From: Polytrichum commune
Lineage: Eukaryota > Streptophyta > Polytrichopsida > Polytrichales > Polytrichaceae
Reading direction: 5' to 3'
Assembly (NCBI GenBank): GCA_950295325.1
Contig: OX485809.1
Coordinates: 13,702,001 to 13,766,000 of the forward strand
Length of the DNA: 64,000 bases
Under the pieces are notes generated by a model that was not told the origin of the DNA, did not search any database, and was given only the letters and a program-made list of their open reading frames with translations. Positions 55,140 through 64,000 of this stretch are shown here, one piece after another; position 1 is the stretch's first letter, and every line of letters starts with the position of its first letter. A program made the position numbers and the translations under genes.

Positions 55140-57000
55140 TGTAATATAGACTTCAAAATAAATTAATAGGACTTGTGTTATCATTTTGAGAGTCTGGCTT
55201 CAAAGAGATCAAAGCTCTATAGGGTAGACAATATACGATTATGTTTCTCATTAGGACACCTATATTTAAGTGTTATATAGTTTGGTCTCCAAGAACGAAA
55301 ACCATTAAGACAGGTGTTTAAAAGAGATTACATTGCATGCTCAAAATATGATAATCATTTTAGGTTCATCAATCAATCTAATTGGGGAGACTTGAATGAC
55401 CACTATATGAGCATCAAAAAAATTACTTTGATATTGAATAAGACAGTTATATGAGTTCCGGAAATTATAAAGAATGTGGCTACAACCTTGATTTGGAATT
55501 GCTAATCATCTTGTACTAATCTCATGTTTCGTATCCTAGGGAAGTGGGCTAGTTGGAAAGAGTGACCATTTAAGACCCATCAACCTTAAATATCAAATTA
55601 ATGTGCACGAATATGAACATGAAACTTTTATGTGTGGCTTATGATGGACTTTAACCTTGAATTGTGTCAGCTTGCAACTCAACAATTTCGGAAATTTCAT
55701 ATCACCTAGTCAAGGGCATTTGAGTCCACAATCACCAACATTTGTTTAATCAATTGCTTGTATGTGGAACCCAACTCCATAATGAATGTATTGGAAGTAA
55801 ATATTCTTCATTGCAATATACTCCTTTGGTAAGATGACTTCACATAAATGCAAAGTCAATTTCATGAAGGTTCCAAGCTAGTCCATGAACCTTCCAACTG
55901 ATGTTACAGGAGTGTTCTACCAATTTCATGAACTCTCTGAATTAGTTCATGACCCTTCTAGACCGACTAGACATGTGGCACACCTCCAATGATAGTGGAC
56001 CTTCACCTTTAGCAACTTCAGTAATCTTCAAGACCAATTTCATGAATCTTTTTGCACTATGTGGTTCTTGTATTCTCAACTTCTCGCTAGGCTCCTCATT
56101 TTGAAAACATGGTCTTTGTACCATGTTTGACAATAGAATCAATTGGAAACAACTCATACAATAGTATTGTATTTGAAGGGTATGTTTTGCATTGGTTAGG
56201 GTTTCAGTTTGAGGGATTCATTGTTTAACTATATTTGTTTCTTGATTGGAAGTAGTTGGAAACAATTCACTTTGTGTTGTTTTGTGTTGATTCGGATTAG
56301 GATTGGTGTCAATTATGGGTTACAATTAGCTTTTGTTTGGTAGGGCTACAATTTGTTCTTCTAAATTGGTTCAGTTCGGTAGCTATGCCTAGTCGTCCAT
56401 GTAGATATAACCACATAGATGATACACTTCGTTCATGAATCATACATTTTATTTTAATGAGGGTTTATCTTATGTTGACATAAGTAAACGTTACAGTTAT
56501 CCTTATGAAACTATTAGCATCATAGCCATAGTTTTTGAAGAAAATGGTTAATTAATGCCCAAACATAGAGGTGTTCGTTGTATCCAATTTTACAATATGA
56601 AATTGACATTTAAGTATATTTGGACAAACCATTGGTCCAAAAATATCAAGGAATGTGCACTTGTAAGAACAAAAATATCAAACGACAACAACAAAACCAG
56701 TAACACAACAACCACAACTTTGAATGTTTGTATTCCATGTTCGCCAACCATCATATTTGTGTAATTTTGTCATTTATTGTATGTCATATTGGCGGTTGGA
56801 ATTGTCCAAAATTCATGCATAAATTCAAATATGCTTAAATCCTAGTTATGAGCATATTCAATGCTTAGTAGAGAGGCTCGATGTAGATGCAGACACTAGA
56901 AGAATTTCTTCAATCAACAACTGTATTTAATACTCTAATACATGTAATAAAGGACAAGAATGACTATAAAAATGTTAGTTATTATGGACAAGTTGTAACG
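55140..57000. other. AT-rich spacer
   Basis: No gene is recognised. Words such as TTTCATGAA and AGTCCATGAACCTTC recur at 55860-56050, an irregular repeat without clear period. Confidence 0.35.
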
Positions 57001-57032
57001 GACATATAGTGATTGTGGACATGACATGGCTT

Positions 57033-57420
57033 CCACGTCAACTTCATCCAAATCGGACACACGTGAGAGACATTTGCCACGTGGCTCCGACGTGGTAGCC
57101 ACCTCATGACTAGGCATACATGATGGCATCCTTGTCACCATCTATGTGGCAGGGCCTTTGAGGATGTGGCATTCCTATTTTGGCATGTGAGTGTGTGCCA
57201 CGTGTCATTATGTCATAGTTACATGTGGCGAAACCATTCGAGTCGCATAATGCCACGTGTGAAAATGCGTAGTGATTGTCTAGTTGAATGTATGTGTTTA
57301 TTTGCCACGTAGGATACGCGTGACGGTCATGCCGTGAATTGCATGCCACGTCATCTTTGGTGATTAGGCCATGTCCCACTCGGAGATGCTGCCACGTACA
57401 TGCCAATAGTGCCATGTGGA
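57033..57420. promoter_or_regulatory. Cluster of CACGT (G-box/ABRE-type) motifs
   Basis: At least eight CACGT cores occur in under 400 bases, most as GCCACGT(G). They lie near 57034, 57060, 57078, 57198, 57253, 57305, 57346 and 57392. G-boxes bind bZIP and bHLH factors in plants. No gene start is adjacent, so they may be part of a degenerate repeat and not a promoter. Confidence 0.45.
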
Positions 57421-57427
57421 CTTCGTT

Positions 57428-57665
57428 ATAGTCATATACTAGTCGTTGATTATAGTCATATAGTACTATTTGATTATAGTCATAGCTTACTTATTGATTG
57501 TGGTCATAGAGTAGTCATTGATCCCAGTCATAGAGTAGTCATTGATTGCAGACATAAAGCGGTCATTGGGTACAGTCATAAAGTTGTCGTTGATTACAGT
57601 CATATAGTCCTCGTTCATTACATGCATACAGTAGTCATTCAAGAGTCATAGAACAGTAATTGATT
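57428..57665 (+). repeat. 30-bp minisatellite, about eight units
   Basis: The unit resembles TAGTCATTGATTACAGTCAT followed by AGAG/ATAG and repeats every 30 bases. Because 30 is a multiple of three, the frame opens across it and reads as ten-residue repeats around (V/I)DYSH, which is not evidence of a gene. Confidence 0.85.
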
Positions 57666-57971
57666 GTTATATATTATTGGTTCCATGTCACATGTCAAAT
57701 AATCACACGTCATTGAAAAAATCACCATGTGTGAACGTTGATAGTCATCAGGGCGTGTTCATTCAACAACTCAAACTTCAGGCAATTCATGCCTGACTAC
57801 ATTGATTCAAAAATAGGGTACATTCATACATTCACTAATCCGCTTTCGATGTCATATGTGCAATAAAGCGTGGTTCAACACTTACAACAAGTGCCACCTG
57901 ACTGTTCATTTGGCAGTCCTAGCCCCTTCAGTGTAGTACCTTCTAAACATGTTTGCTATGCCTACATTTTC

Positions 57972-60900
57972 CTAAGCCTTCAAATACTTCTGGCTCCATA
58001 AGACACTGCCTCCTATCACATCACCTACAACGAATTGATCTCCTTCTGCATGTGGATGCATAAGAGGGGCATCACCTACTTGTACTTGTGTAACGTCAAC
58101 CTTGTAGAACGAGTGGGGAATTGGCTTGAAATGAAATTTATCTACCCCCCACACACCACTAACAGTTCCAAATGCCACTATCTGCCGCGGACTCTTGAAA
58201 TTCATCAAGTGCACAACTTCGCCAATAGTAAACTGCCCCAGCCCAACATCCGCAACACGCAACATGTCAAGGGGCATGGAAATTATGCAACAAAAACAAA
58301 TTCAAGCTTTGGAACCTATACATCAATCAAATTGTAGTTGAGTACTTACCCGGTGCACATTGGGTCCTTCATTCAATGCGGCGTCAAGTGCTTTCACCGT
58401 CCTTGTTCGAAGCTCCTTCCCTTGATTTACCTGCACACAATCCAACATATGAAGCCCATTAGTGAATTCAATGTCAACATAGGCAAGGGGACATTGCAAA
58501 GTGTGAACCAGTAGTTCACAGCTCCCCTAACCTGACAACGGAGGATGTCCCGACAATATTGTGTCTGCAAGTTTCATCTTTGAGCTCCTCGTTGTCCTCC
58601 CACCCGCGTGTACATTTCGCGAATGATCCCCAATTGCCTGCTTGGTATTAGGCAACACACTACCATGTGTGTGAACATCAAGACTATCACCTAGGCCTTT
58701 CAGAATAGGCCACAAACCAAATCTCAGGTAATTGTTATCATCTGCAAGCTTTGTGATGTCCTCCACATAGAAGGGGGGCGGGATAATGACGTTCGCATCT
58801 CGATTGCAGTCCACCATAGCTCGGTGGTGGTCGATGATCACTGTGTTCCCCTCATTCCATTCTGGCCACATCCCCCACACTTTGGACAGTGGTTTTCTCC
58901 ACTTTGACACCCCACTCTTCCCACTATCTGCCTCACATTCCTTTGCTGACCATATGAACACAGGTTTGTGGCTACCCAAGCCACTAAACTTCCGCAACAT
59001 CGAGGCCACAACATCTTCCATGTTTGTTGTGCTCTTGATTCCCCAAAATGCAACTCTAAAATTTCTGAAGCACTTGTCTATGAATTCAACAAGCCATGGC
59101 CTAAACACCATCCGTCGTGTCGAGGACCGCGTAGTCACACGGATAGATGTGTTAGGATTAGGCTCCGTCAATAGACTGCAATCTAACAGCGTGCCATGGA
59201 CATTAAAAATCAATAATTTTACTGGAACTTGGGTACCAATTCTCTCGATGTCACTGCTCACCTGCTCTCGTGGATGAGCCTCTTGACTGCCACTACCACC
59301 TACTCTGTTAGGGGAATGGTGAGGCTTTTTCCTCCTTGGTTTAGTAGGAGTGGCTCTCTTCCCTGGTGACAATGGCGGAGCCATGTCCACATTCCCACTT
59401 CGAATGCACCTACCTTCTCCATTGCCAGACCCTCCACTCCCACCCTCCACCGCCAATGCAATCGCAGTCCCACCATCAGCACTTCCCTCTATCAAGGTAG
59501 CAATTCCTGCACCCTTTGCACAAACATCAACCCCATCCTCCCCATTACCACCTTGGCTAGGAGTAGGGTCCCCAACCGCTGCGCCTCCACCTTCCATGAG
59601 TGCACCTGCAAGGATCTCAACTACCTCTGTTCCACCTACCTTGCTAGCGCCTACCTCGCTAGCAAGCTCCGGGCTCCTACCACCCCCCATCACACCCTCC
59701 CCATTCAACTTGGCCACATTAGTGGGAGCTTCAGACTCAATCACCTTAGTGACTGGGTTTAGGGTGGTGTCACCTGCACTACCATCCCATGAATTCAACA
59801 TGGGTTCTGAACTAGGCATATGGGAGTTAGTATATTGGGGTGTGGCTGACTTGGGCTTGCATACAGTCACTGGGTTCCCTAGTTTCTCCATCATGATGGT
59901 GAACATTGATGAAAGGTTATTGAGGACCACGGTGTTTTGTTGAGAAGTGTGCAAAACTTCGGATAACTGCTGCTTGAAGTCATTTTGTTGGCTCTCAACT
60001 ACACTCAACCGTGTTGACATCCTCCCAGAAACACCTTGCTGCACACATACCCACCAAAGAGGAGAAGGGTTTCAAAACAACAGACTTCATGAAGACGTTG
60101 ACCTCATGATGGCAGCATGGACCCAACATAAACACGGACATCACAGCAGTATGCTAGCGGCATTAATCCAATATAAACACATGCAAAGATTGCTGTTCCT
60201 ACATTACTAAGTGATAAACACATCGATCCACTGAAATATGTTAGTAAGATGTTGCAACATAAACCTTTTATGCCACCTAATGTAAACCCAGAAAGTATGA
60301 CTGTAAACTTACTACAAGAAAAGAGAGCAATATGACTGCGATGTTACTACATAAATCCAGCATTATGACTATGAACTTACTGCATGGCCCCAGGGAGTGA
60401 CTCAACATGGAACCTTATGCTACTTTAATGGACAATGACTGCAAGTTTACTTCATAAACCCAAGCTCAAACCCAGCCTGCACCCATCATTATTGCAGCAG
60501 TTCACAGTGGAATGCATCATGACAGATATTGCTCGAACACTTAAATCACTAAAATCACCCAAAAATTACTCTCACAAAAGTCCAACATAAACACAGCGAT
60601 GCACTGAAATATGTTAGTAAGATGTTGCAACATAAACCTAGGCTGAGCATGCCACCTAATGGAAACCCACCAAGTATGACTGTATGCTTACTACAAGAAG
60701 AGAGCAATATGACTGCGACGTGAGTACATAAAGCCAACATTATGACCAACCACTTACTGCATGGCCCCAGCAAGTGACTCAACATGGAACCCTTGCAGGT
60801 GATCTACATGAACCCAAGACAGCAAACTTAGTTGAATAGAGCCTCATTACTTACAGATGTACAAGCTCCAGTCTGCTCAGACTCTTGTAGCTCTTCCGCG

Positions 60901-63649
60901 ATTTCAGTAATCCCTGGGCTCCTTTGCCTCTTTTTTCGCTGTCATAGCAATGCAGCGGAGCACCATTAGTTCAATTATGATATAATAAACATGTGAAATG
61001 GCTTACAAGATATGGAGTTTCTGCATTACTTACCAATTGAGCTTCTTTTCCAGCCTTTCCAGTCCTCCCAACATTCGACATGTTCTTCACTTGCTGCCTT
61101 GCTTTCGCCATCAACTGCGCCTTTTGTTCTGTCTCGGGCGCCGACCAATATTCACATAAACGTGCCCATTGATCCGGTTCAATGAAAACCGGGCATTGTT
61201 TTTTGCCGAACATAAACCAACCTTTCATTTTGGCCCTCTCAGTTTTCATTTGTCTTTTGACTGCATCTTTGAAGCCACCATCTGATAGCCTATGTCCCAA
61301 GTACTCAAACTCATTGTCTATGGCAGACCTCAGCTTCTCCACGGAGCTAGGATGCTGGAACTTCCACTTTAGCACGCTTACATCCAAAATACGAGGAACG
61401 AGGCTGCGGAGCGCCTCATCAAAGGCATTTTTGCCTTCACAGCCGCCATCTATGCCACCACCGGCTTTCACTCTCAGTGTGTAAGGTTTTTGGCCTCCAG
61501 AGCGCCGCAAGTCCACATTTGATTCTGCCTCCTTCCTATTGGCTCTCCGTGTCGCTCTTGCTTCACTCTCTGCCTTTACCTTAGACTGGTTTTCAAGGTG
61601 TTCCGGCAGTTCGGGCGGGGGAATCCAGTGGCTAGGGTATGGTTGGCCCCATGGCCCCAGATGGCTAGGGTATGGTGGGCCCCATGGGCCCATGCCCCCA
61701 TGTTGCTGTTGCATCCACGGAGGCTGCATCCAATTGGGGGGCCATTGATTCTGAGGTTCCCTTGATCCCTTGTTTCCTTGTTTCGCTGCAACCTAACCAC
61801 AACCACAACAAAGGCTTTGTTAAGGGTATATAATTGTGTATATAATGGTTGAATCTAAAATATGGCTTTAGGCACTTAGCTCTAGACACAGAAAACTGCA
61901 TACGTAGTTCACAAGTAGGGTAAAAGTAGTATGGCGGAAGTCAGATTGGGTATACTAATACTACAAACTTACTGCAGAGCAACTGCAAAATAACTGCAAA
62001 CTAACTGCAAACTAACTGCATAATTACTGCAATCTAACTGCAATCTAACTGCAAACTAACTGCAAAATTACTGCAACAGTAGTGCAGACCCTTAACACGT
62101 ACCTTTTTCTGTGGAGACTTCAAAATTTGTCTAGCTCGTTTTCGCTTTGTAGCACTGGAGCCAGCCAAACCATGAGTGCCTTCGTGTACAGACTCGGAGT
62201 CCTCAGAGCAGTCTGCACCATGGAAAAAAAATGAGGGGTTAACTACAATGCTTGGGAATCCGAGGAACCATTCCTGAATCAAACTTTGGGCCAGGTATGC
62301 GTTCACTTCAATTATTTATCCTACAGGTTTACAGTGGGAGTTACTCCGATCTGACATTAGGGAAAAAAAGCCCAAGAAGCGAGCAGGAGAAGAAAAAGAT
62401 GGGGGGATGAAATCTGCAAAGCCATGAGTAACCGGTTGGACTTGCAAACACACTGATCTCAACATATTATGCATCAAATCGAACCCAAACACACCCCCAA
62501 CCTCAAGAACCGAAATTTAACAGGTGTTGTTTCTTCTAGAAAAACAATTAGTCCAACCTATGATGTGGGAGAACCAGCAGTTAATTATGGATGAACCGAA
62601 GGATGTCTACAGCTTTCCCAATGTGTTGTAGTTTGGCAACCCCATACTCCAAATCTAGATTATGATAGTACATCACCTAAATAACCACAGGAATTGGCTT
62701 AGGTATAGTTCAAATAAGACAAGTGTTCGCTTCTGTTTGATGACAATTTTCTGAAGTATTGACACTTAATTCTCCAGATTATGAAGCAACATAAAACTTG
62801 CATAATGATGAATGAGTGCCCTCAGATGTATTACACTAATAAGGCAAACCCCTAACCACTAATAAAATGGAAATAGAATATAGGCAAGGTTTAAACGCAG
62901 CAAAAGCCAACCCAACGTTTTTTTCTTCCTAAAATGGATTCATAAAGTCAAGTGTTGCAATCTACATCTAAAACAGATTAGACACCAGCAACAGAGGGTC
63001 CACGAAACAATTACTCTTTCATTTTGATCACCCTAGAGAAGAACCCTGTGAGGTATGCATCAACTCCGTACAGACACAGAGCTTGGAAGTCGAGACTCTT
63101 TTGAGGGCAGCTCATCCGAAACAGGCTCACTTGTTTTGGATTCCATTACAGACACTACAAAAAGCTGGGGACACAAGCAGAGAGTTCGAAATTCATGTCT
63201 TTTAATCTGAAATATACCGAAAATGTTCTTTAAACCGAGCAATGAAGCAAGTGACCGCAAGTAAGCAAGGAAGCAAGTATGCAAGCAAGCAAGTATGGAA
63301 GCACGCAAGTAAGCATGCAAGCAGGTAAGAAACCAAGTGTGCACACGACTAGTATCAAGGGAACCCTTCAACAAAGACTAAACCCTAGACTTTGGATTAA
63401 ACCCTAGACTTTGGATTAAACCCTAGACCAGTATGCATACGAAGTAAGTAAGTAAACAAGTAAGCAAGCAAGTGAGCATTCAAGTAAGCAAGCTAGTAAG
63501 TAAGCAAGCAGGCAAGTAAGATGACAACCCCAACATAACCCTAAACCCCAACAAAATCCACGCCAAGGCAAGAGAGATGGAGTGAGAGACTTACCTGGGA
63601 CGTACTCGTCCTCGGTCTTGGACTCGTCCGCTTCCTCGGCGCGCGGCAT
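57972..63649 (-). CDS. Transposase_24-like / FCP1-like pseudophosphatase fusion protein
   Basis: Eight exons give one frame of 956 residues without stops: 63649-63595, 63154-63131, 62212-62103, 61792-61034, 60938-60855, 60038-58532, 58420-58350 and 58232-57972. Exon 2 (24 nt) and the exon 7 acceptor are the least certain. Residues 40-62 carry a basic nuclear signal (KRKRAR). 85-115 are Pro/Gln/Gly-rich. About 145-316 (ILDVSVLKWKFQ, KDAVKRQMKTERAKMKGW, QWARLCEYW) resemble Transposase_24/En-Spm accessory proteins. 360-400 form a coiled coil, followed by a Gly/Ser linker. 617-800 form an FCP1-like HAD phosphatase: KLLIFNVHGTLL, FRPWLVEFID, FWGIKS, KPLSKVW, VIIDHHR, PFYVEDITKL. The last 86 residues (FYKVDVTQVQVGDAPL, VLWSQKYL) resemble the C-terminal module of the same transposon proteins. 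The HAD DxD motif is N-V-H, so catalysis should be lost. It may be domesticated or a young element gene. Confidence 0.7.
60219..60791 (-). repeat. Duplicated 200-bp unit in intron 5
   Basis: Copies at 60219-60412 and about 60590-60791 share GAAATATGTTAGTAAGATG, ATGACTGT, TACTACAAGAA and CTTACTGCATGGCCCCAG, with a shift of about 375 bases. Individual CTTACT(G/A)CA words recur at finer scale. Confidence 0.75.
61970..62095 (-). repeat. 11-bp minisatellite in intron 3
   Basis: About ten units of AACTGCAAACT and close variants lie just downstream of exon 3. Confidence 0.85.
63240..63520 (-). repeat. AAGC/AAGT tetranucleotide tracts and 18-bp repeat in intron 1
   Basis: Two tracts of AAGCAAGTAAGCAAGC-type sequence (63240-63345 and 63442-63520) flank a tandem repeat of ACCCTAGACTTTGGATTA (two full units and a partial one, 63380-63429). 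Confidence 0.8.
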
Positions 63650-64000
63650 TTCGGACTGGCCACCCCCCTGCGAGTTTTTTGCAACACAAGTCCTGTTGCT
63701 CCTGCGCGGGGGTTTGAGTGGGTTTGGAGCGGGTTCGCGGCGTACTTTGGGGTGCTGTGCGTCGCAGCAATCACGCCTGCCACCCAACAAAATGCTTTAA
63801 CCGATGTACACTAAACCCTACCGATCCACACAGTGGGATGCACACCGGACGTCTTCAGGCGAGCAAGTGCGCGGAGAGAACTCACAGGGTTGGAGACTGA
63901 CGTGAGTTCTGGGCGTTCTCGACGTGTGGGAGAGAGACCCAGTCTCAACCGTCCACGTGTGATGGCCCTACCCATCACACGTCAGCAGGGACCTCAAACC
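63650..64000. promoter_or_regulatory. Promoter side of the fusion gene, with inverted repeat
   Basis: Upstream of the chosen ATG the sequence is GC-richer. It contains a perfect inverted pair, ACGTGTGATGG at 63955-63965 and CCATCACACGT at 63972-63982, with a six-base spacer. A G-box CACGTG overlaps the left arm. It could be a factor site or a transposon end at the window edge. Confidence 0.5.

Follow-up and report, generated by a model that had tools for sequence, protein, structure and literature searches.

A probable TnpA-like gene with a predicted FCP1/SCP-type pseudophosphatase domain in a CACTA transposon of Polytrichum commune

The gene described here runs on the minus strand from 63649 to 57972 of a 64,000-nucleotide stretch of Polytrichum commune DNA (the window), and our reading is that it is probably the TnpA-like second gene of a CACTA transposon that was active recently, and carries a dead binding module of the FCP1/SCP fold. 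Judged from its sequence, its place as the second gene of the element is the most likely assignment, with TnpA-like referring to position and multi-exon structure alone; the transposase frames of its element lie on the other strand. The protein would consist of an element-specific N-terminal module, a fast-evolving linker, the FCP1/SCP-fold domain and a small C-terminal beta module. CACTA elements with added domains are known, and what appears to be new is a NIF/FCP1-SCP pseudophosphatase as the addition. In the open-licence literature that was searched, by titles and abstract openings, we found no precedent for a CACTA element with a NIF/FCP1-SCP domain.

The element carrying the gene is full-length by copy alignment and spans 16,312 bp, from window position 56894 to C7:13775205, with its in-window part at 56894-64000. 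When it is aligned with two other genomic places, identity begins exactly at 56894, with CACTA, and the alignment of the other copies stops at both ends. The left end at 56894 reads CACTAGAAGAATT and has AGA directly before it (56891-56893, the left half of the target-site duplication by copy comparison), and the right end, read in L001, is ATTCTTCTAGTG with AGA directly after it. A CACTA-type terminal inverted repeat, CACTAGAAGAAT, is present at both element ends, the left one (56894-56905, plus strand) equalling the reverse complement of the opposite end in 12 of 12 bases. Elements of the En/Spm type make a 3-bp target duplication, and such duplications, which the original prediction had proposed to look for, were found in all three copies examined: AGA/AGA for the window element (copy A), TCT/TCT for copy B (C7, about 6.49 Mb) and CTT/CTT for copy C (C5, about 47.08 Mb), the last two read in the orientation of copy A. 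The two further full-length copies are 99.82% and 99.96% identical to the window element; there are 7 differences in 16,312 bp between A and C, and 10 mismatches plus one 19-base gap between A and B. Three near-identical full-length copies, each with its own 3-bp duplication, point to very recent movement of the family, in agreement with the earlier suggestion that the protein belongs to an actively spreading element and has kept its frame. Exon 3 of copy C contains a stop, so the whole protein is not made by every young copy.

The subterminal region at 56960-57750 contains TAGTCAT repeats, a word chosen after inspection of k-mer counts. The terminal 1050 bp contain 9 occurrences on the left and 6 on the right, against 5 in the 14.2 kb between them. 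On the plus strand, the element's other half has Pfam matches to Transposase_21 (3.3e-64), DUF4218 (3.9e-33), DUF4216 (1.6e-12) and Transpos_assoc (4e-8). These TNP2-type transposase domains sit in separate open frames just beyond the window. The claim that every other transposon-derived gene in the window is broken was not confirmed. The CACTA ends, the 3-bp duplications, the TNP2-type transposase and the subterminal repeats together assign the element to the CACTA (En/Spm) superfamily, and from its sequence it appears to be a recently active, autonomous-looking transposon. The element also contains two WD40-like frames, at 2119-2517 and 2679-3083 of L001 (66119-67083 in the numbering of a virtually extended window), for which all Pfam matches fall under the cut-off. 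The second of these has 5 genome matches, namely the 3 element copies, C3:34444473 (89% amino acid identity over 106 residues) and 1 short match, and the two frames look like a captured host gene fragment.

In our model seven exons join to 2847 nt and encode 948 amino acids with no internal stop. All on the minus strand, these are exon 1 (63595-63649, ATG at 63649), whose donor GTAAGT is also found in L010; exon 2 (62103-62212), with splice sites conserved in L010; exon 3 (61034-61792), the element-specific N-terminal module; exon 4 (60855-60938), taken from the closing splice model; exon 5 (58532-60038), the linker followed by the NIF/FCP1-SCP-type pseudophosphatase domain; exon 6 of the closing model (58350-58420), with an uncertain start; and exon 7 (57972-58232), the C-terminal module. 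A multi-exon gene with a frame closed without a stop had been predicted and this stands, but its eight exons and 2871 nt do not, as the candidate sites gave no closing chain for them; the seven-exon chain closes with an AAG acceptor. The two models agree from the altered N-V-H motif to the stop (1005 nt) and the earlier one is 24 nt (8 residues) longer upstream, so that the motif placed there at residues 623-625 is found at residue 615 of the seven-exon model. The 514-codon open run exceeds chance, given a maximum of 322 and a median of 137 codons in 1000 first-order Markov sequences (58001-61800, six frames). A search of Rfam over 56000-64000 gave no match at gathering scores. Intron 4 contains a direct duplication of about 200 bp (60214-60414 and 60587-60791, 86% identical), present in all three copies, and introns 1 and 2 contain simple-looking repeats as judged by eye (63220-63520 and 61960-62080), with runs resembling GCAAGTAA and ACTGCAAACTA.

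The C-terminal splicing is the weak part of the gene model, and we are unsure of it. The closing model relies on the AAG acceptor before 58420. A better GCAG acceptor lies ten bases upstream, and with this alternative start at 58430 the frame reaches an early stop at codon 854. By eye, the AAG route loses the frame in 2 of 5 aligned relatives, L011 and L012. The exon 7 module (58232-57972) is itself indicated to be coding, since its changes among five relatives number 53, 34 and 112 at codon positions 1, 2 and 3. It is predicted by AF2 to form a small beta fold (pLDDT 79.2, pTM 0.70), with the five models spanning pLDDT values of 39.5-79.2. Compared with PDB folds it has no match at E<=0.001 (best E 0.22), and the CAP-Gly, PWWP, Tudor and KOW chains among the 50 fold matches listed are not significant. 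For the transposon accessory region that had been proposed at the other end of the protein, Pfam gives exon 3 a weak Transposase_24 match (18.1 bits, curated cut-off 28.7), and copies of the exon 3 region occur at many places in the genome, together with transposase copies.

By its sequence and its predicted structure, the exon 5 domain is an NLI/FCP1/SCP-type HAD domain. The phosphatase part of the original prediction proved to be real, with a Pfam NIF match of 3e-10 and 40.5 bits (cut-off 21.8). The domain as modelled comprises 205 residues (58647-59261, minus strand), with a mean AF2 pLDDT of 88.0 and a pTM of 0.86 from 27 aligned sequences. The structural comparison with FCP1/SCP phosphatases that had been suggested was carried out with Foldseek, and every one of the 32 PDB matches with E<=0.001 is to CTDNEP1, SCP1-3, UBLCP1, Fcp1 or Tim50, with moderate TM-scores on the query of 0.50-0.65. 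A viral fold library gave 18 matches at E<=0.001 (best 8e-11, 9-23% identity), which are mostly giant-virus NIF-type phosphatases and no closer than the PDB ones. Sequence kinship was judged from a profile of 18 transposon copies alone (A2), which has a single PDB match, UBLCP1 at 6.3e-9; the A1 profile, in which host and second-family rows are included, favours SCP1/2. With the whole of exon 5 the matches among solved structures are UBLCP1 (0.00054) and two weaker, chance-like ones.

The nucleophile Asp is required for the phospho-aspartyl intermediate of the NIF/FCP1-SCP family. In the window gene, motif I (59196-59204, minus strand) reads Asn-Val-His in place of Asp-x-Asp, and the same change runs through 21 aligned CACTA copies, which were picked from the better exon 5 matches with copies B and C left out. 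The nucleophile position is Asn (N20) in 19 of them and Asp in two (L010 and L022), and the second Asp of the motif is replaced by His (H22) in all 21; motif I thus reads N-[VIML]-H in 19 copies and D-V-H in two, which differs from DxDx(T/V). The predicted loss of two catalytic Asp was therefore right for the second in every copy and for the first in all but two. The alteration is also wider than had been claimed: the motif II Ser/Thr is Gly (G74) in 20 of the 21 copies and Ser in one, and motif IV is Asp-His (D144, H145) throughout, with the Asp kept and the second acidic residue replaced. The motif III Lys (K123) is retained in 21/21, G23, T24, L25 and D27 are likewise invariant, and overall 60 of the 205 domain positions do not vary, counting positions filled in at least 18 rows. 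The near-identical copies have N-I-H (B) and N-V-H (C). Of three apparent host genes in the same genome, L035 and L036 have Asp-Val-Asn together with Asp-Asp, and L034 has Asp-Leu-Asp together with Asp-Asn. From these residues the domain should no longer dephosphorylate, and we predict it to be a pseudophosphatase. In the domain tree the two Asp copies are nested among Asn copies, which would make Asn ancestral to that group, and with moderate support the Asp looks like a return. This is possibly a return towards an active residue, and with Asp at the nucleophile position those two copies may have some chemistry.

The dN/dS calculation that had been proposed for the phosphatase part indicates that the domain is under purifying selection. 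By the Nei-Gojobori method, 15 of 17 domain pairs have dN/dS values of 0.13-0.47 and the other 2 are saturated; some copies enter more than one pair, which means that the pairs are not independent. The corresponding values are 0.15-0.20 in 5 of 6 pairs for the exon 3 core (one saturated), 0.23-0.73 in 12/12 pairs for the linker (three with dS about 1.5), 0.19-0.66 in 7 of 8 pairs for the exon 7 module and 0.09-0.52 in 10/10 pairs for the transposase. The linker thus appears fast-evolving relative to the domain, whose dN/dS is the lower of the two in 9 of the 10 pairs with both measured; the exception is the very close pair L013-L025 (domain 0.28, linker 0.23). Bootstrap intervals (95%) are non-overlapping for L011-L012 (domain 0.18-0.43, linker 0.53-0.99) and L012-L013 (domain 0.17-0.44, linker 0.46-0.86), and overlap for A-L010, where the domain interval is wide (0.23-0.70, linker 0.43-0.97).

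The original prediction saw the gene as a joining of modules, and comparison with related elements shows that this is no one-off: the flanking modules recur in elements without the phosphatase domain. In L038, L039 and the outgroup L040 the exon 3 and exon 7 modules are present and no NIF domain was found between them; exon 3 identity over the matched stretch is 63-64% for the first two and 38% for the outgroup. In the more distant L041 the exon 3 module alone was found. L039 has a weak 29-residue match (E 0.02) to the NIF domain of a second repeat family, outside the interval between its modules. Beside the transposases L053, L054 and L055 there is no domain match among the matches listed, whose counts are lower bounds. 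The transposase of L038 (L045) has the near copy L053 at a dS of 0.018, so domain-free elements appear capable of spreading, and the domain would hardly be needed for transposition and would be accessory.

With domain and transposase paired by nearness in the genome, each of the three ingroup clades of the transposase tree contains domain-bearing elements. The histories of second gene and transposase seem to be partly separate. The exon 7 modules of L038 and L039 differ, by eye, at 2 of 86 residues and their transposases fall in different clades; dS between A and L010 is 0.19 for the domain and 0.05 for the transposase, and between A and L011 it is 0.40 and 1.00. This module likeness and the discordant dS values suggest that modules have been exchanged between CACTA subfamilies, and with such exchange the gains and losses of the domain are not safely countable. 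The exon 3 and exon 7 trees are too poorly supported to decide the number of gains, and a single gain with later loss or exchange is our preference and not a result. We also observed that L038/L045 and L039/L046 combine near-identical C-terminal modules with transposases from separate CACTA clades.

These data allow other readings of the gene to be weighed. It could be a plain transposon relic whose frame is open through youth, as the three near-identical copies differ by 0.04-0.06% and are too young for decay. Exon 5 has at least 94 matches in the genome (58 typed and counted, and 36 others assessed by eye, none of which spans the domain), and 17 of the 45 that span the domain contain stops. 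Such copies with stops are part of what the original prediction had named as arguing for a relic, namely many near-identical copies with stops. However, 28 of the 45 are stop-free, the three young copies included, and these extend down to 42% identity to the query; motifs are retained in the 20 other aligned copies, which are 53-89% identical in the domain. Older copies compared with one another give dN/dS values well under 1, so a plain relic does not follow from the stops, and we consider it improbable. The open frame and the purifying selection would also be expected of a domesticated host gene with a regulatory role, and there is a parallel in the MAIL3-type host genes, in which, according to passages of PMC7156037, a plant mobile domain related to transposons is fused with a phosphatase domain. 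But the gene is flanked by CACTA ends, 3-bp duplications and open transposase frames, and it exists in three near-identical places, so that the copies largely refute the domestication proposed in the original prediction; as selection at the level of the element accounts for the open frame, this reading is scarcely credible.

It could also be asked whether the domain is kept as host-like DNA that makes silencing costly to the host, with the function of the protein being irrelevant. Camouflage of this kind has been proposed for domains captured by CACTA elements, in passages of PMC8978399, and the same element holds the captured-looking WD40-like frame with 89% identity over 106 residues to C3:34444473. 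Such a role predicts high DNA similarity to the host, whereas at the protein level the domain shares 19-23% identity with the three apparent host genes that were aligned, and its stem in the tree is long (2.38 changes per column). Selection moreover acts on the protein, with dN/dS below 0.5 in 15 of 17 pairs, making this very improbable. A further reading is that the domain remains an enzyme of another kind, in which Asn, His, Lys, Asp and His build a new metal or phosphate chemistry. The invariance of H22, K123, D144 and H145, and also of G23, T24, L25 and D27, in 21/21 copies is what would be expected. Near-site invariance is equally expected from folding or ligand binding, however, and of the 21 copies 19 lack the nucleophile Asp and 20 lack the motif II Ser/Thr, so we regard a new chemistry as unlikely.

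A binding role for the domain, on a second TnpA-like gene of the element, is then the most natural reading. The protein would act at the subterminal repeats, by analogy with TnpA of En/Spm, and the dead phosphatase domain would serve as a binding module that tethers or shields a host (phospho)protein, and in this way would raise expression of the element or reduce its silencing. Candidate partners would be the Pol II tail, a silencing factor or, as the UBLCP1 kinship might hint, a proteasome-linked protein. A more specific and rather doubtful proposal is that a CACTA lineage has made a CTD-phosphatase-type domain into a phospho-reader on a TnpA-like protein; bound at the element ends, it would catch RNA polymerase II in its phosphorylated form, or some other phosphoprotein of silencing or transcription, without dephosphorylating it and so keep the element expressed. 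If this were true, the NIF-type domain in the second repeat family would mean that mobile elements make recurrent use of such domains. A polymerase-tail-reading fold selected for non-catalytic use would be a testable handle on how transposons steer transcription or silencing, and since the family has many copies, some with the domain and others lacking it, natural controls are at hand.

Tim50 works by binding proteins. Fungal Tim50 resembles the transposon domain in its imperfect motif, and passages of PMC8346121 describe it as having no perfect motif and no phosphatase activity; they describe human and trypanosome Tim50 as active, which we counted against the binding-module explanation. As described in parts of PMC2613891, the TnpA protein of En/Spm is a regulator of the element that recognises subterminal repeats and is able to block RNA polymerase. 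Repeat recognition by TnpA, the inactivity of fungal Tim50 and the protein binding of Tim50 together lead us to infer that the protein is TnpA-like and that its phosphatase-shaped module serves for binding. The domain shares fold and family with SCP1-3, UBLCP1, CTDNEP1, Fcp1 and Tim50, and unlike SCP1-3, UBLCP1, CTDNEP1 and Fcp1 it has N-[VIML]-H where these have DxDx(T/V).

Among transposons, En/Spm, Tam1 and Tgmt* as described in parts of PMC2613891 are like the present element in their CACTA ends, tnp2 transposase, subterminal repeats and multi-exon TnpA-type product, and Tgmt* is also very large (20.5 kb). Unlike in these, the second gene here has a NIF/FCP1-SCP-type pseudophosphatase domain and lies on the strand opposite the transposase; the word phosphatase is absent from the available text of that paper. 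The Chenopodium CACTA elements, in passages of PMC8978399, have the same four basic transposase domains (TAD, Transposase_21, DUF4218 and DUF4216) and likewise a second coding region that takes in extra domains, their ORF2 carrying Transposase_24 and Peptidase_C48; Orbi_VP1, SANT and ribosomal_S8e_like are named in other CACTA combinations. The added domain here differs in being a dead phosphatase, and phosphatase, CPDc, FCP1 and NIF do not occur as whole words in the available text of that source. MAIL3 likewise joins a transposon-derived plant mobile domain to a phosphatase-type domain, but this is a PP7-type domain of the PPP family in a host gene and not in an element gene, and its relatives MAIN, MAIL1 and PP7L have roles in gene expression and in the silencing of transposons (parts of PMC7156037). 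The AlkB-type RNA demethylase of orchid Ty3/Gypsy elements is similar in that a domain of host type has become fixed in a lineage of plant mobile elements, with a proposed role in countering host control, but it is an active enzyme in a retrotransposon (parts of PMC9289625).

A second, very abundant repeat family in this genome has its own NIF-type domain, in frames of 257-281 amino acids with the motif D-L-N-G (L016 4842-5624, L017 4771-5613 and L018 4383-5153; also L058/L059). Genome-wide there are at least 152 Pfam NIF matches (965 candidates, 150 scored), and, judged by frame size and score, most of those listed look like this second family. Asp-Leu-Asn-Gly and Asp-Asp are retained in its domain, the latter being Asp-Asn in L018, and in the domain tree, for which the program warns of long branches, the family groups with host genes and not with the CACTA domains. 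The frames neighbouring the domain have what we take to be a ParB-like look; they gave no Pfam match, and in the open-licence literature searched we did not find ParB in moss or Mutator-like elements. A frame like those of the second family also lies within the outgroup CACTA stretch (L040 2914-3576), perhaps as a nested insertion. L058 has a SWIM finger match under threshold (E 0.071), and two copies of the family share about 6.4 kb. Beside the second-family NIF domain of L018, self comparison reveals an array of tandem units of about 170 bp at 1-2876.
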